NCBI GenBank assembly: GCA_002686955.1
Contig: NYZA01000025.1
Coordinates: 1-13,807, forward strand
Reading direction: 5' to 3'
Length of the DNA: 13,807 nt
Source of the DNA: Gemmatimonadota bacterium
GTDB lineage: Bacteria; GCA-2686955
The translations under genes were made by a program, and so were the position numbers. Positions 3,660-10,307 of the stretch are shown piece after piece; position 1 is the first letter of the stretch; each line of letters starts with the position of its first letter. The notes beneath the pieces were generated by a model. That model worked only from the letters and a program-made list of their open reading frames with translations, was not told where the DNA came from and made no database searches.

Positions 3660-4100
3660 ATGCCCGCACGCAGACGATTCGCCGCCGGTAGTCTGATCAT
3701 CACGTTCTTCCTTGGGCTGCTCGCCTACAACCTCTACCGAACAGTCGATGAGGGGGTGGGCACCTTTACCTACTACACCACCGTGTCGGAATGCTGGACG
3801 GGGCTCGAGAGCGGACAGATCGCGGCCGGAAACGGGGTGCGGATCAATGGAAGTGTCATGGCCGGGTCGATTCGTCGGGAGGACGCCGAAACCCGGGTTC
3901 ATTTCACCATCACCGACGGAGAGCGCTCCTTTCCGGTGACCTACGGGTCGATCGACCTTCCCGATCTCTTTCGGGACGGTGCCGACGTGGTCGTCGAGGG
4001 GAGGTTCACGGGCGAGCGGCATTTCGATGCCACGAGCGTGATGGCGAAGTGCCCCACCAAGTACGAAACAGCGGAATCGGCATCCGCCGGCGAGGCCTGA
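3660..4100 (+). CDS. ccmE: haem chaperone CcmE, CXXXY variant
   Basis: CcmE is a membrane-anchored periplasmic chaperone that binds haem covalently and hands it to CcmF for cytochrome c assembly. The 146-residue product has an N-terminal anchor (residues ~6-24), then the OB-fold core: YTTVSECW, an NGVRINGSVMAGS strand corresponding to the usual 'VRVGG.V..GS', VHFTITDG, FPVTYGSIDLPDLF and VVVEGRF. In classical CcmE the haem ligand is a His in HXXXY after 'VLAK'. Here the site reads VMAKCPTKY, so Cys131 replaces His and Tyr135 is kept. This CXXXY form is established for archaeal and some bacterial systems. The ATG at 3660 is chosen because GGAGAGG lies just upstream and the anchor starts immediately after. 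It is followed by ccmF after 27 bases. The call is strong because of the core motifs and the ccm context. Confidence 0.93.
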   Translation: MPARRRFAAGSLIITFFLGLLAYNLYRTVDEGVGTFTYYTTVSECWTGLESGQIAAGNGVRINGSVMAGSIRREDAETRVHFTITDGERSFPVTYGSIDLPDLFRDGADVVVEGRFTGERHFDATSVMAKCPTKYETAESASAGEA

Positions 4101-4127: not shown

Positions 4128-6335
4128 ATGGCTGAGCTCGGGCAATATGCCCTCCTCTCCGCTCTGGTGCTCTCCGTTTTCGCGCTGATCGCGGCGCTGA
4201 TCGCCGGCTTCGATGCACGGGACCGACCGCGGTCGCGCGGTAAGGGTTCGTCGGTCGGGATCGCGGTCCTCGCGGGGGCTGTTGTCGCGGCGATTCCGGG
4301 CTTGACCGAGTTCGACTGGACCGGCCGAGCCGCCTTCGCCTGCCTGGGACTCGTGCTCTGCGGCATGGTGTGGACGCGTCTGGCGCCCTGGCGAGGGGAT
4401 CCGCGCCTCCTCGCCGTCGCGGAGCGGGCGAGCCACGGGGTCTTCGCGGCTCTGAGCCTGGCGATCGCGGGGTTGGCCTGGGCCTTCTACAGCAACGACT
4501 TCAGCCTGGAGTACGTGGCCCATCACTCCAGCAGCGCGCAGCCGAGACTCTATGCGGTCACCGCCGTCTGGGGCGGCATGGCCGGCTCGCTTCTGCTCTG
4601 GAGCTGGATCCTCGCCGCCTACGCATCGATCATCCTGCTCCGCAACCGCAGCAAGAATCGCGATCTGATGCCATGGGCGACGGCCACTTTCGCCTTCGTG
4701 AACCTCTTCTTCCTCGGCGTGATCACCTATCTCTCGAACCCTTTCGATGCCTTCGCGCCGAGTGCGGTGCCTTTCGACGGAATGGGGCTGAATCCGCTGC
4801 TCCAGAACCCGGGCATGGTCATCCACCCGCCGCTGCTCTACATCGGCTTCGTTGGAACGACGGTGCCGATGGCTTTCGCGGTCGGTGCGCTGGCGACGGG
4901 GCGTCTGGACGAGCGCTGGATACGGATTTCGCGCCGTTGGACCCTGACGACCTGGGCCTTTCTGGGCGCCGGCATTCTGCTCGGTGCGTGGTGGGCGTAC
5001 GAGGAGCTCGGCTGGGGCGGCTACTGGGCTTGGGATCCGGTCGAAAATGCGTCGTTGATGCCCTGGCTGACCGGAACGGCCTATCTGCACTCGGTGATGA
5101 TTCAAGAGAAGCGCGGCATGCTGAAGATCTGGAACATGATCCTGGTGTTCCTGACCTTCTGGCTCTCCGTTTTCGGCACTTTTCTTACGCGCTCAGGCTT
5201 CGTTCAGTCTGTACACACTTTCGCCCAGTCACCGATCGGCTGGTGGTTCCTCGGCTTTCTGATTCTCTGCCTCATCCTCTTTGTTTGGATCATGATTCGG
5301 CGGGCGCCGATGCTCGGAAGTGTGAATCGTCTCGAATCGGTTCTCTCGAAAGAGGCGAGCTTCGTTTTCAACAACTGGCTTTTCGTGGCGGCCTGCTTCG
5401 TGGTGTTTCTGGGGACGGTGGGTGAGCCGATCAGCCGTGCGTTTACGGGTGTTTCCACCACATTTCGCGCTCCCTACTATAACGAGCTCGAGATCCCTAT
5501 CTTTTTGATGGTGCTCGCGCTCGCCGGGATCGCGCCCCTGATCTCGTGGCGGCGGGCGTCGGCGGCGAATTTGAGGCGGAGTTTCACGGTGCCGGCGGTG
5601 GTCGGAGTCGGTGGAATGGTGTTGTTCGTTGCGTGGGGGATCGGTGGGGGATGGGTGGATGCGTCCGAGAAGCCACATATTTATGCGATGTTGACGCTTG
5701 GCGCCGGCGCCTTCGTGCTGGCCACCGTGGTGCAGGAGTTCGTTCGCGGGGCGCGGACGCGCAAGAGGGCGCACGGCGAGACGATCGGGCGGGCCTTTGT
5801 TTCCTTGGTGGCGCGAAATCGGCGGCGCTATGGGGGTTATGTAGTGCACGTGGGGGTCACCGCGATGTTCGCCGGGATCGCCGGCTCGGCCTTCGATGAA
5901 GAGGCGGAAGCGCTCCTGAAATCGGGTGAGAGTCTTGCCGCCGGGGGGTACGAGATCCGCTTCGTCTCCAACCATGCCGTCGACCGGCCAGACTACAGTG
6001 CTCGGCGGGTCGAAGCGGAGCTCTACAAGGATGGCGAGGGGTTGGCGGTCATGATGCCGGAGCGGCGCTTCTATGAGCGACAGAACCAGCCGACGACCGA
6101 GGTGTCGATTCACTCGCGTCTCTTCGAAGATGTGTATCTGATTCCCGGCGGCTTCACCGACAATTCGGACGAGGCGATTCTCAAAGTGCATATCAATCCG
6201 CTCGTGGGCTGGGTTTGGGCCGGAGGGCTCATCATGCTGATCGGTTCGGCGGTGAGCCTGTGGCCGGAGAGGGGTCGGCGCGGGGAGCCGCATGCGGCCG
6301 TGGCGAAGAGCGAGGGGCTGGTTCATGCGGGCTAG
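4128..6335 (+). CDS. ccmF: cytochrome c haem lyase subunit CcmF
   Basis: A 735-residue polytopic inner-membrane protein that attaches haem from CcmE to apocytochrome c. The WWD haem-handling motif is GWGGYWAWDP at residues 295-304, followed by VENASLMPWL. The four histidines expected for b-haem and WWD-haem ligation are present: His233 (IHPPLLYIGF), His321 (AYLHS), His363 (SVHTF) and His574 (VVHVG). Early conserved segments are YSNDFSLEYVAHHSSS and WGG.AGSLLLW, and the last helix is GWVWAGGLIMLIGS. Compared with E. coli CcmF (647 aa) it carries about 60 extra residues between the first helix and the ERASHG region, with one or two added hydrophobic stretches, plus about 23 more between the second periplasmic and last ligand histidines. 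It ends in TAG, overlapping the following gene by 11 bases. Confidence 0.95.
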   Translation: MAELGQYALLSALVLSVFALIAALIAGFDARDRPRSRGKGSSVGIAVLAGAVVAAIPGLTEFDWTGRAAFACLGLVLCGMVWTRLAPWRGDPRLLAVAERASHGVFAALSLAIAGLAWAFYSNDFSLEYVAHHSSSAQPRLYAVTAVWGGMAGSLLLWSWILAAYASIILLRNRSKNRDLMPWATATFAFVNLFFLGVITYLSNPFDAFAPSAVPFDGMGLNPLLQNPGMVIHPPLLYIGFVGTTVPMAFAVGALATGRLDERWIRISRRWTLTTWAFLGAGILLGAWWAYEELGWGGYWAWDPVENASLMPWLTGTAYLHSVMIQEKRGMLKIWNMILVFLTFWLSVFGTFLTRSGFVQSVHTFAQSPIGWWFLGFLILCLILFVWIMIRRAPMLGSVNRLESVLSKEASFVFNNWLFVAACFVVFLGTVGEPISRAFTGVSTTFRAPYYNELEIPIFLMVLALAGIAPLISWRRASAANLRRSFTVPAVVGVGGMVLFVAWGIGGGWVDASEKPHIYAMLTLGAGAFVLATVVQEFVRGARTRKRAHGETIGRAFVSLVARNRRRYGGYVVHVGVTAMFAGIAGSAFDEEAEALLKSGESLAAGGYEIRFVSNHAVDRPDYSARRVEAELYKDGEGLAVMMPERRFYERQNQPTTEVSIHSRLFEDVYLIPGGFTDNSDEAILKVHINPLVGWVWAGGLIMLIGSAVSLWPERGRRGEPHAAVAKSEGLVHAG

Positions 6336-6786
6336 CGTGTTCTTTTTGGCAACCGTCGTCGCCCTCGCTCTGCTCTCGGTGTCACCAGTTTCAGCACGGG
6401 CCCCTCGCGTGAGCGAGGTGGCCGGCGAGGTGATCTGCCCCTGCCCCGACGATTGCATGCGGGTGCTGGGCGATTGTGTCTGCGGCTACGCCGAAGGGTA
6501 CAGGAGCGAGATCGACAGCTTGCTGAGCTCGGGGCTCGACGCGGGCCAGGCGAAGGAGGCATTCTTGGCCACGCATGGCGAGCGCTTCAGGGCCTCGCCG
6601 AAGTTCAGCGGAGCGGGGCTTCTGCTCTGGGTGGTGCCGCCTATGATCGTGATCCTCTCGCTGGCCGGACTGGTTCGGGTCGTGCGACGGTGGTCGATTG
6701 CTCCGGCACCGGCGGCCGGGGGGGCATCGGTGAGCGAGGAGGAGGCGGCGCGATTCGAAGCGGATCTGGAGGAGCTCGATGCGTAG
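6325..6786 (+). CDS. ccmH: divergent CcmH-like protein with a five-cysteine cluster
   Basis: CcmH normally holds apocytochrome thiols reduced through LRCXXCQ. This 153-residue protein has a signal peptide (residues 1 to ~24, ending VSA), a short periplasmic domain, then a membrane helix (residues ~93-117) and a cytoplasmic acidic tail. The second half of the domain is CcmH-like: a helix with EGYRSEIDSLL, 'GLDAGQAKEAFLATHGERF', and SPKFSGAGLLLWVVPP, equivalent to the family's 'YG..VL..PP....LLW..P'. The LRCXXCQ motif is missing. Instead the cysteines are Cys38, Cys40, Cys44, Cys51 and Cys53 in a CPCPDDC...CVC arrangement, which could bind a metal or act in thiol exchange. The ATG at 6325 is preferred over the one at 6292 because it starts the signal peptide. 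It overlaps ccmF and the next gene. The symbol reflects position and partial homology, not proven equivalence. Confidence 0.75.
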   Translation: MRASVFFLATVVALALLSVSPVSARAPRVSEVAGEVICPCPDDCMRVLGDCVCGYAEGYRSEIDSLLSSGLDAGQAKEAFLATHGERFRASPKFSGAGLLLWVVPPMIVILSLAGLVRVVRRWSIAPAPAAGGASVSEEEAARFEADLEELDA

Positions 6787-8062
6787 AGTAGAAGTCGTCG
6801 CTTGCGCGTTTCTCGTCGCGGGATCGGCGCTGGGCACACCGAACGACGGCACCATCGTGGGACGGATGGAGAATCGCACACCGGGCGGTGCGCCGGTCGC
6901 CGGCATCGAAGTGAACCTTCTCTCTCCCCGGCAGTCGGGCGACGAACCGGCCCTGAACGCCCGGACCGACAACGCCGGATCGTTCGTGTTCAAAGGGCTT
7001 GATCGCGATCCCGATGCCTCTTATGTGGTCGGAGCTCGCTTCGAGGGCGTTCCCTATATCACCGATTTCGCGAGCTTCGAAGAGGGGGAGAGCAGCCTCG
7101 ATCTCGATATTCGGGTCTACGATGCGACGAGCGATCCCTCTGAAATCGAGATTGCGCGCGTTCACACCGTAATCGAGCGCTCCGATGAGGGCGGGCATCA
7201 CGTTCGAGAGTCGATCGCCTTTCGCAATTCGGGAGATCGCGCTTTCATGCCGGCCGAGCCGGGGGCGGTGAGCTTCGGGCTGGCCCTTTTCCCGGGGGCG
7301 GGCGATCTGCACCATGGTGGCGGCTTTCTGACCGGGTTGATCGAGGCGGTCGACGGACGAGCGAGCTACCACGGGCCCCTCTATCCGGGTGAGACCACCG
7401 GGCTGATCGGCTATTCGCTGCCGGCTGGGGCGCCCCTCGCTCCGCTCACGCGCAGCTTCGACTACCCGGTGGAGCGCCTCGATCTGCACGTGGCGGAGGG
7501 GGTTGGCGGGCTGGTCGGCGAGGGCTGGGTATCGCTCGAGGCTCCGGAAGGGGTGCACGGTGTTCCCTATTCCTCTTGGTCGCGGGCGGGAGCGCGGGCC
7601 GGGGAGAGGGTGCGAATCGCCTTCTCGGATTCCGCGCGCGCGCGGCGGGCGGGGGCCGATCCTCTCGTCGTGCTGAGCATTGGAATTGGCGCCTTGGCGC
7701 TCGTACTGCTCTGGGTGCTCGCGCCTTTCCGCGGTGGGATCGAAGCGGCGGCGGAGATACGGATCGATCCGCTGGCGGACCTCGAACGGGAACGGGCGGC
7801 GCTTCTGCGCTCGGTCCGCGATCTCGATTTCGATCATCAGATGGGCAAGCTCTCGGACGAGGACTACCGGCCGCTCAGGGACGAGCTGAGGGCGCGGGGG
7901 GTGGCGATCACCAAGGAGCTCGATGCCCGCCGCTCCGCCGGGGCGAAGAAGAGGGGAGCCTCCGCGCCGGTCTGTTCCGAATGTGGCGCCACGGTGCGGC
8001 GCAAGGACCGCTACTGCGCCTCGTGCGGAGCGTCGCTCGCGCAACCGGCGGCGCGGGGGTGA
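6779..8062 (+). CDS. CcmI-like membrane protein with outer carboxypeptidase-regulatory-like domain and cytoplasmic zinc ribbon
   Basis: A 427-residue single-pass protein between ccmH and ccmA. Order of parts: signal peptide (1 to ~20); a carboxypeptidase-regulatory-like beta sandwich (residues ~22-115: GTIVGRMENRT, then the 'TDNAGSFVFKGL' pattern); a second beta-rich periplasmic region to ~290; a membrane helix (~295-316, VVLSIGIGALALVLLWVL); a charged coil (~330-380) with LRSVRDLDFDHQMGKLSDEDY, very like the start of CcmI-type subunits; and a C-terminal zinc ribbon with Cys399, Cys402, Cys413 and Cys416. CcmI normally presents apocytochrome to CcmF/H through periplasmic TPR repeats. Here no TPR is seen and the beta domain may do the presenting, which is inference. 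The ATG at 6779 overlaps the ccmH end by 8 bases, and the stop overlaps the GTG of ccmA. Confidence 0.75.
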   Translation: MRRVEVVACAFLVAGSALGTPNDGTIVGRMENRTPGGAPVAGIEVNLLSPRQSGDEPALNARTDNAGSFVFKGLDRDPDASYVVGARFEGVPYITDFASFEEGESSLDLDIRVYDATSDPSEIEIARVHTVIERSDEGGHHVRESIAFRNSGDRAFMPAEPGAVSFGLALFPGAGDLHHGGGFLTGLIEAVDGRASYHGPLYPGETTGLIGYSLPAGAPLAPLTRSFDYPVERLDLHVAEGVGGLVGEGWVSLEAPEGVHGVPYSSWSRAGARAGERVRIAFSDSARARRAGADPLVVLSIGIGALALVLLWVLAPFRGGIEAAAEIRIDPLADLERERAALLRSVRDLDFDHQMGKLSDEDYRPLRDELRARGVAITKELDARRSAGAKKRGASAPVCSECGATVRRKDRYCASCGASLAQPAARG

Positions 8063-8778
8063 GCGCCTCGCATCTGCGGATCGATGGACTGACGAAGCGC
8101 TTCGGCCCGCACCGCGTCTTGGAGTCGATCTCCTTCGATCTTCGCACGGGCGAGGTCGCGGCGCTGCTCGGGGCGAACGGGGTCGGCAAGACGACTACCC
8201 TGAACTGCCTCGCCGGCCTGGCGCGGATCGACGGCGGCCGAATTCTGATGCGAGGGGCGCCTTTCGATCGCCGCGACCCCGGCCACCGCTCCCGCATCGG
8301 TGTCGTCTCTCACGACACCTTTCTCTACTCGGAGCTGACCGTCCGGGAGAACTTGCTCCTCCATGCCCGCATTCACCGTCTGCCCGATGCGCGCGTCGAC
8401 GAGGTGATGGCCGAGCTGGAGTTACGCCGCTTCGGCGACACCCGCATTGGCCACCTTTCGCGCGGATGGAGACAGCGCAGCGGCGTGGCGAGAGCGATTT
8501 TGCACCGCCCCGAGCTCCTGCTGCTCGACGAGCCTTTCAGCGGTCTAGACCTACGCGCGACTCGGCTTCTGCGCGAGCTTCTGGCCCGCCTCAAGAACGC
8601 CGATCGCTCGATCCTCTTGACCACCCACGATCTCGGCGCGACCCGGGAGCTGGCCGATCGGGTCATCGTGCTCGATCGACGCAGCATCGCCTTCGACGGG
8701 CCGACAGCCGAGCTCTCCGCCGCCGACCTCGACGCGCTTCTCGCCGGACCACCACGGGCCGAGGCGGCCCCCTCATGA
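8059..8778 (+). CDS. ccmA: haem exporter ATP-binding subunit CcmA
   Basis: The ATPase of the CcmABCD complex, which releases holo-CcmE. The 239-residue product starts at a GTG overlapping the previous stop (GTGA). Walker A is GANGVGKTT (residues 38-46), the ABC signature is LSRGWRQR (from residue 133), Walker B is LLLLDEPFSG with Asp157/Glu158, and the switch histidine is His190 in LLTTHDLG. The D-loop SGLDLRA is present. The usual Q-loop glutamine is replaced: the segment reads GVVSHDTFLYSELTVREN, the shape typical of CcmA ('H.T.LY..LT..ENL'). Context with ccmB and ccmC directly downstream makes CcmA much more likely than a generic ABC transporter. Confidence 0.93.
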   Translation: MSASHLRIDGLTKRFGPHRVLESISFDLRTGEVAALLGANGVGKTTTLNCLAGLARIDGGRILMRGAPFDRRDPGHRSRIGVVSHDTFLYSELTVRENLLLHARIHRLPDARVDEVMAELELRRFGDTRIGHLSRGWRQRSGVARAILHRPELLLLDEPFSGLDLRATRLLRELLARLKNADRSILLTTHDLGATRELADRVIVLDRRSIAFDGPTAELSAADLDALLAGPPRAEAAPS

Positions 8779-9458
8779 CCGAGCTGCTCCGAGACATCCG
8801 CCTCATCGCCGCCAAAGACCTGGCGGTCGAGCTTCGCTCCAAACAGATGCTCACCGCAGCCGGCGTATTCGGCGTGCTGATCCTGGTCGTCTTCAACCTC
8901 GGATTCCACCCCGACGAGCGCGATCCGATCGCGATGACCCCCGGCGTGCTCTGGGCGGCCTTCCTCTTCGCGGGCAATCTGGCGCTCGAGCGCAGCCTCT
9001 CGATGGAGCGGAACGACGGGTGCATCCTAGGGCTGCTCGTGAGCCCGATCGATCGCGGTGCGATCTACCTCGGGAAGTTCGCCGCCAATCTCGCGGTGCT
9101 GCTCGTCGTCGAGGCCTTCTTGCTCACCCTCCATCTGCTCTTCTTCTCGATGGTGCTGAGCCCGCAACAGTGGCTGCTTCTCGCCTCGCTCGCGTTCCTC
9201 GGCAGCGCGGGCTACGTCGCGGTCGGCACTCTGATGACCGCGGTGGCCGGCGGAACCGGGCACAAAGAGCTCGTTCTGCCTCTGCTCCTCATCCCCCTGG
9301 CGGCCCCGATCCTGATCGGCGCCGTGCGAGCGACCACCGCCCTGCTCCACGGGGCGGGCTGGGGCGATCTGCTCTTCTGGTTTCAACTGATGCTGGCTTA
9401 CGATGGCGTCTTTCTGACCGCCGGTTTTCTTCTTTTCGAATTCGCCCTAGAGGAGTGA
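8775..9458 (+). CDS. ccmB: haem exporter membrane subunit CcmB
   Basis: A 227-residue membrane protein that forms the ABC complex with CcmA. About six hydrophobic helices can be counted. The N-terminal cytoplasmic helix AAKDLAVELRSKQML precedes the first span (GVFGVLILVVFNLGF). The conserved block ALERSLSMERNDGCILGLLVSP corresponds to the CcmB pattern 'LER.F..D...G.LE.LL..P'. LPLLLIPLAAPILIGAVRAT is the typical fifth-helix region. The start overlaps the ccmA stop (ATGA) and the stop lies one base before the GTG of ccmC, so the three subunits should be made in step. Confidence 0.93.
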   Translation: MTELLRDIRLIAAKDLAVELRSKQMLTAAGVFGVLILVVFNLGFHPDERDPIAMTPGVLWAAFLFAGNLALERSLSMERNDGCILGLLVSPIDRGAIYLGKFAANLAVLLVVEAFLLTLHLLFFSMVLSPQQWLLLASLAFLGSAGYVAVGTLMTAVAGGTGHKELVLPLLLIPLAAPILIGAVRATTALLHGAGWGDLLFWFQLMLAYDGVFLTAGFLLFEFALEE

Positions 9459-9459
9459 C

Positions 9460-10149
9460 GTGGACTCCAACCCCTTCCTGAATCTGCTGAAACGAGGCAG
9501 CAATGTCGCGGGGAGTGCCGCCCTCGTTCTCCTCTGCGTGCATCTCTACGCGGCCTTCTTCGTGGCGCCCGAGGAGGTGGTGCAGGGTGCGATTCAGCGA
9601 ATCTTCTATGTGCACGTGCCCGCGGCCGTCAACGCCTTCCTCGCCTTTATCGTTGCCGGCATCGGCAGCGTCGCCTACCTCTGGAACCGCGGCCGCGCGT
9701 GGGACGCGACCGCCGTGGCGTCGGCCGAAGTCGGCGTATTCTGGGGCGCGATCGTATTGATCACCGGTCCCCTCTGGGCGAAGCCGGTCTGGGGCGCCTG
9801 GTGGACGTGGGACGCCCGCCTCACATCGACCCTGATCCTCTGGCTGACCTTCGTCGCCTACCGCCTCGTGCGGGAGCTGGCCGGCGGGGGGGAAAAGGGC
9901 GCCCGCTTCGCCGCCATCCTGGCGATCGTCGGCACCCTCAACATCCCCTTCGTGAGGATCTCGACCGAGAAGTTCCGCACCCTGCATCCCGGCAACGTCG
10001 CCAAAGCGGGCCTCGACCCGACGATGCACAAGGTCCTCTTCCTCGGCATGGGGACCTTCTTCCTCTTCACCCTTTTCCTCCTCGGCAAACGGATCCTGCT
10101 CGAAGAGCTGCGGGACCGGCGGCTCGCGATCGAGCTGGAGGGCTCCTGA
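9460..10149 (+). CDS. ccmC: haem export/CcmE-loading protein CcmC
   Basis: CcmC positions haem for covalent attachment to CcmE. The 229-residue product has six predicted helices and the WWD motif WGAWWTWDARLTSTLILWL, with the core at residues 111-118. Two ligand histidines are visible: His52 in FYVHVPAA and His176 in FRTLHPG. NIPFVRISTEKFRTLH matches the conserved stretch before the second histidine ('N.PIV..SV..W.TLHQ'). The start is GTG at 9460, preceded by AGAGGAG that also overlaps the ccmB stop. Length and motifs are normal for the family. CcsA/CcsB of System II also has a WWD motif but is longer, and the neighbours exclude it. Confidence 0.94.
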   Translation: MDSNPFLNLLKRGSNVAGSAALVLLCVHLYAAFFVAPEEVVQGAIQRIFYVHVPAAVNAFLAFIVAGIGSVAYLWNRGRAWDATAVASAEVGVFWGAIVLITGPLWAKPVWGAWWTWDARLTSTLILWLTFVAYRLVRELAGGGEKGARFAAILAIVGTLNIPFVRISTEKFRTLHPGNVAKAGLDPTMHKVLFLGMGTFFLFTLFLLGKRILLEELRDRRLAIELEGS

Positions 10150-10307
10150 TGGAAACGACCGGCAGAATCGCGTGCCATGTTGCGCTCTCGTACGGCGTGA
10201 CGGTGGTGGGTCTGGCCCTCTATGCGTGGTCGGTGCTGAGGCGGATCCGGGGGGAGGGGGAGAAGATCGACGCGCTGGGGAGGCAGGCCGGGACTGACGC
10301 GCGATAG
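10149..10307 (+). CDS. ccmD: small haem exporter subunit CcmD
   Basis: A 52-residue single-pass protein whose ATG overlaps the ccmC stop (TGATG). The helix spans about residues 12-30 (ALSYGVTVVGLALYAWSVL) and is followed by a basic-acidic cytoplasmic tail, RRIRGEGEKID. CcmD proteins are poorly conserved in sequence; the assignment rests on size, one helix ending in 'Y.....' then RR, and position directly after ccmC. In E. coli CcmD stabilises the CcmABC complex and helps release holo-CcmE. It ends the tight operon; the next gene starts 39 bases later. Confidence 0.82.
   Translation: METTGRIACHVALSYGVTVVGLALYAWSVLRRIRGEGEKIDALGRQAGTDAR

Follow-up and report, generated by a model that had tools for sequence, protein, structure and literature searches.

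The ccm operon of the window

The window, as we call the whole stretch of DNA analyzed (13,807 nucleotides, contig NYZA01000025.1 of a Gemmatimonadota bacterium), carries a ccm operon whose overlapping genes follow the order ccmE(CPTKY)-ccmF-ccmH-orf-ccmA-B-C-D (Table 1). The genes from ccmA to the ccmD-like gene are joined by overlaps or by a 1-nt gap. Translation of ccmE bears out the statement of an earlier note on this DNA that the companion CcmE is of the CXXXY type. The 427-residue protein encoded directly downstream of ccmH consists of a carboxypeptidase-regulatory-like N-terminal part, a membrane helix, a coiled segment and a C-terminal zinc ribbon; to judge from sequence, the coiled segment resembles the N-terminus of CcmI, and the protein may be a CcmI equivalent. 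Upstream of the ccm genes, nucleotides 2131-2655 encode a membrane segment followed by an Mrr_cat domain, which resembles restriction endonucleases (42.8 bits against a cut-off of 21).

Table 1. Features of the ccm operon in the window
Feature	Position	Strand	Basis and remarks
ccmE, CXXXY type	3660..4100	+	PF03100, 93.2 bits
CPTKY haem-binding motif of CcmE	4050..4064	+	Translation; His in place of Cys in E. coli
ccmF, cytochrome c synthetase core	4128..6335	+	PF16327, PF01578; 11-nt overlap with ccmH
ccmH-like gene, 153 aa	6325..6786	+	ORF; PF03918; AlphaFold2 model; PDB fold matches 2hl7 and 2kw0
Codons of C38, C40, C44, C51 and C53 (CXC-X3-C-X6-CXC)	6436..6483	+	Translation
Membrane protein, 427 aa	6779..8062	+	Pfam matches weak, all below cut-off; 8-nt overlap with ccmH
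ccmA, ABC ATPase	8059..8778	+	PF00005, 115 bits; GTG start at 8059
ccmB	8775..9458	+	PF03379, 85.3 bits
ccmC	9460..10149	+	PF01578, 94 bits, over cut-off; TIGR01191, 138 bits, under cut-off of 186
ccmD-like, short membrane protein	10149..10307	+	PF04995, 13.9 bits, and TIGR03141, 15.9 bits, both below cut-off

Translation of nucleotides 6325-6786 on the plus strand yields a protein of 153 residues, MRASVFF...VICPCPDDCMRVLGDCVCGYAEGY..., which is made up of a signal or anchor segment, a domain with five cysteines, a C-terminal membrane helix and a tail. The LRCXXC motif occurs nowhere in these 153 residues, and VICPCPDDC...DCVC stands in its place. The cysteine positions reported earlier (38, 40, 44, 51 and 53, without LRCXXC) match the translation exactly, and the membrane helix said to be retained is predicted at residues 97-124. 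Assuming a cysteine content of 1.2%, the chance of finding at least five cysteines in a given 16-residue stretch is about 1e-6. Conservation in relatives, described below, is a stronger test of the cluster than this calculation, and it rules out a chance origin.

A CcmH-family protein without the canonical exchange site

CcmH is one of the subunits of the cytochrome c haem-attachment machinery. The window protein scores 47.8 bits against PF03918, for which the curated cut-off is 25, and in profile-profile comparison the five-cysteine profile matches that of canonical LRCXXC CcmH at 98.7% (E 1.6e-15). An AlphaFold2 model of the window protein (mean pLDDT 89) has two CcmH structures, 2hl7 (Z 7.8, rmsd 3.5, 68 aligned) and 2kw0 (Z 7.0, rmsd 4.4, 69 aligned), as its top PDB fold matches, the next row having a Z of 3.0. 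Both matches fall under Z 8 and are supportive jointly with the sequence match; searching the PDB by sequence yielded no relative. Moreover, in three survey genomes (G132, G248 and G375) the C-terminus of CcmF is fused to a five-cysteine CcmH domain.

By its profile matches, its predicted fold, its position in the operon and the CcmF fusions elsewhere, the window protein is a CcmH-family subunit. The homology claimed in the earlier note is thereby confirmed, the predicted fold being CcmH-like and not an unrelated one. An unrelated protein occupying the place of CcmH is ruled out by the same profile, fold and fusion evidence, and NrfF (TIGR03147) was rejected because its match is weak and far below cut-off (19.2 bits against 159.2). 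With the known CcmH/CycL/Ccl2 proteins (PF03918; 2HL7 from P. aeruginosa and 2KW0, the N-terminal domain of the E. coli protein) the window protein shares the profile, the three-helix periplasmic domain, the membrane helix and the ccmF neighbour. However, those proteins possess the LRCXXC exchange site, whereas the window protein has five conserved cysteines and no arginine before the first of them. With LRCXXC replaced, it is therefore filed as a non-canonical subclass of the CcmH family, devoid of the canonical exchange site.

Conservation of the five cysteines

The five-cysteine profile recovered about 119 distinct relatives that could be read, and 116 of them retain every one of the five cysteines although they share only about 20-35% identity with the window protein; two additional phylum searches mainly served to enlarge this sample. 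The relatives follow the pattern C-x-C-x(1-3)-C-x(6-7)-C-x(1-4, rarely more)-C. One relative, in genome G049, has lost Cys53 alone, leaving a set of four cysteines, and Cys51 is also kept by the SPxCPG form of CcmH. Outside the cluster, Gly70, Gly85, Pro92 and Pro105 are conserved, in agreement with the earlier view that the CcmH-like second half is retained, and Pro105, together with the likewise conserved Trp123, lies within the predicted membrane helix.

Distribution of CcmH forms over CcmE types

A profile search of 386 genomes recovered CcmH-family proteins in 96 and CcmE in 125. The HXXXY type of CcmE was found in 26 genomes from 15 family groups, all of which carry an (L/I/F)RCXXC CcmH with arginine before the first cysteine. 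The remaining 99 of the 125 genomes, representing 70 family groups, have CXXXY CcmE. Five-cysteine CcmH amounts to 38 proteins in 25 family groups with a readable CcmE, a few of them second copies. Its readable CcmE companion is CXXXY for all 38 survey proteins, and none of the 26 HXXXY genomes contains the five-cysteine form. Among the 18 survey cases with both genes on the same strand within 8 kb, 17 have ccmE 2.0-2.4 kb upstream of the five-cysteine ccmH, which is the room taken by ccmF.

A set of 50 named loci, drawn with a narrower alignment that reaches mainly Nitrospinota, gave the same picture: 49 are labelled Nitrospinota, Nitrospina or Nitrospirae/Nitrospirota and one Lindowbacteria, the ccmE-ccmH arrangement is that of the window, and where ccmE is in view it is of the Cys type (CPSKY) in 47 of 47. 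Apparent HPGKF matches at these loci proved to be an artefact of the search pattern, all 47 CcmE being of the Cys type. The constant co-occurrence of five-cysteine CcmH with CXXXY CcmE, which the earlier note proposed as a check, thus holds wherever CcmE is readable, and the form is spread over many bacterial lineages, the ocean's nitrite oxidisers included.

The association runs one way, as CXXXY genomes also carry other forms of CcmH or none. Those found with CXXXY CcmE are SPxCPG..LxxC (10), APCC (12), (M/L)CPxC (7) and a few others. Nearly all (R/K)CXXC proteins, 26 out of 28, come from HXXXY genomes; one of the two assemblies that combine this form with CXXXY CcmE consists of 650 contigs with 5% contamination and contains the five-cysteine form as well. 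The few CXXC-type CcmH proteins in CXXXY genomes mostly have methionine or leucine before the first cysteine. By the survey profile 35 CXXXY genomes lack CcmH, and PF03918 adds just one over its cut-off. A CcmH-family protein is present in 65 of the 99 CXXXY genomes, and 34 have no recognisable CcmH.

Several genomes possess a second five-cysteine CcmH-like paralogue away from ccmE-ccmF (L089, L086, L238, L082, L083 and L168), some of these being short and devoid of the C-terminal membrane helix. Natural CcmF-CcmH fusions occur at L041, L146, L240 and L224, three with the five-cysteine form and one with RCPTC.

A distant relation to PCYCGC proteins

The PF13798 (PCYCGC) profile gave no match to the window protein at E <= 1, and the relation appears at the profile-profile level only, where PCYCGC matches the five-cysteine profile (87%, E 4.5e-7) and a reversed control gives 0.06%. 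In this alignment the C-x-C-x-C, LxxC and further cysteine of PCYCGC fall on the five cysteine positions. The helices also resemble those of CcmH, a PCYCGC model matching 2hl7 with a Z of only 5.2, too low to be decisive. We consider the support for this link moderate. PCYCGC proteins form a separate family with a longer insert and a CxxC/UxxC motif.

At the position aligned with C53, 12 of 21 PF13798 hits (L310-L330) have an in-frame TGA, which we read as selenocysteine, giving UxxC, and SelB was found over cut-off in 10 of 11 genomes with a TGA-bearing PCYCGC gene. These proteins look like selenoproteins distantly related to CcmH, a description of which was not found in the literature searched. 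The TGA codons and the accompanying SelB therefore make it plausible, on sequence grounds, that the C53 position is used in redox chemistry.

Proposed role of the five-cysteine protein

According to the literature, canonical CcmH joins CcmF and either reduces the CXXCH motif of the apocytochrome or holds it (PMC3884852; PMC3601427). We propose, with a probability of roughly 0.6, that the window protein is a non-canonical CcmH subunit of the CcmF synthetase that performs thiol exchange within a System I* machine. The component of this proposal that we consider very likely is that the protein is the CcmH partner of CcmF, as position, fusion and fold together make a CcmH-like station at CcmF likely. 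There it would dock on the periplasmic face, in the manner of CcmH, and would handle the thiols of the apocytochrome CXXCH motif. That its cysteines carry out thiol-exchange chemistry is a reading to which we lean slightly. C38, C40, C44 and C51 would then form the constrained core of a thiol-disulfide site, with C53, perhaps together with C51, as the exchanging thiol; the choice of C53 is a guess. C53 could be recharged by reductants of the DsbD/CcdA type, or by thioredoxin-like ones, whose genes lie elsewhere. Of 32 five-cysteine genomes, 29 encode DsbD/CcdA-type proteins; the source genome is among them and also has thioredoxin-like relatives of CcmG, below cut-off. However, no DsbD/CcdA was detected in G109, G245 and G372, three near-complete five-cysteine genomes of one family group, and a DsbD-fed relay is therefore not universal. 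Furthermore, since CcmH could not be recognised in 34 of 99 CXXXY genomes, no CcmH thiol site can be indispensable in such systems.

The main rival to thiol exchange is a metal site, in which four or five of the cysteines would bind structural zinc or another metal and stabilise the loop between helices 1 and 2, making the protein a non-redox holder of apocytochrome for CcmF. The CXC-X1-3-C-X6-7-C-X1-4-C arrangement would suit a metal as well, which counts against thiol exchange, and the near-invariance of all five cysteines points the same way. So do the short bridge predicted between residues 36-37 and 47 in the AlphaFold2 model and the fact that the sole clean natural loss, in G049, spares four cysteines. 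Yet the characterised CcmH homologues use their cysteines for thiol exchange (PMC3884852), the inter-cysteine spacing varies, and the position of C53 is often selenocysteine in PCYCGC proteins, which would be unusual for a structural metal ligand. On balance, we regard a metal site as possible but rather unlikely.

Alternatively, the cluster might serve the chemistry of Cys-bound haem, helping to break the CcmE-haem bond or accepting haem transiently, and might have co-evolved with CXXXY. The exclusive company of CXXXY CcmE, the part of the earlier note's co-evolution suggestion that stands, agrees with this idea. Against it, CXXXY CcmE also accompanies other forms of CcmH or occurs without any, the Desulfovibrio operon functions in the absence of CcmH (PMC3601427), and the CcmE tree offers a single independent contrast. 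This tree, computed with the ligand position masked, is unrooted, with few columns and many unresolved forks; HXXXY is set apart by a single branch with support (SH-aLRT 97) and requires one change, and only one independent pair is available for the H/C contrast. With HXXXY forming a single clade, the co-occurrence therefore represents one evolutionary contrast, and statistical co-evolution cannot be claimed. A dedicated Cys-haem chemistry is, in our judgement, improbable. A lineage effect, with HXXXY and LRCXXC as marks of one clade outside which CcmH simply varies, is a likely account of the co-occurrence and fits the 31 changes of CcmH type, 19 for the five-cysteine form, needed over the whole tree; by itself, however, it leaves the conservation of all five cysteines unexplained. 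It concerns the co-occurrence only and is compatible with the other explanations, including thiol exchange at CcmF. Since the tree has no root and CXXXY predominates in the sample (99 of 125 genomes), the earlier wording that LRCXXC was lost and the cluster gained finds no support as to direction, and the E. coli-like type could just as well be the derived state.

A broader idea is that five-cysteine CcmH and selenocysteine PCYCGC proteins represent separate branches of a single thiol/selenol module with the CcmH fold, and that in System I* the cluster performs a step absent in E. coli, for instance freeing haem from the CcmE cysteine or reducing apocytochrome without CcmG. We think this improbable.

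Relation to System I*

The CXXXY CcmE systems of Desulfovibrio, archaea and others, known as System I*, resemble the window in their Cys-type CcmE and in the absence of CcmG from the operon (PMC3601427; PMC9084895). Such systems were first described without CcmH, which was later reported in about one-third of bacteria (PMC3601427), and an archaeal Cys-type system lacks CcmH (PMC9084895), whereas the window encodes a CcmH-family subunit with a different cysteine set. Since CcmH was already reported in about one-third of bacteria (PMC3601427) and occurs in 65 of 99 genomes here, its absence is not a defining mark of System I*. The usual picture of System I* is one without CcmH, while about two-thirds of the bacterial CXXXY genomes in our survey have a CcmH-family protein, nearly always with an altered cysteine set. 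The five-cysteine form, of which no description was found in the literature searched (which is not proof of absence), is a widespread and apparently undescribed variant of a known protein family. Adjoining ccmF in Nitrospinota and many other lineages, it provides a defined, testable protein with which to ask how these systems deal with the thiols of apocytochromes and with Cys-bound haem.

Additional observations

In the source genome, clusters of CXXCH-like DNA motifs occur outside the window (e.g., on contigs 24, 28 and 110); they suggest multihaem cytochrome clients, the overall excess over a reversed-pattern control being modest. On the minus strand of contig C73 of this genome (G000, positions 136-521, L002) lies another ccmH-like gene, of the APCC form (ELMAPCCWQGVV...), which is broken: an in-frame TAG and a change of frame interrupt it close to a contig end. 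It may be a relic, result from an assembly error or belong to a foreign contig. Elsewhere, five-cysteine CcmH-like and PCYCGC domains are joined in one ORF (L160, contig C43 of G195), and a PCYCGC gene lies directly upstream of an SPxCPG-form ccmH (L320, contig C16 of G228).
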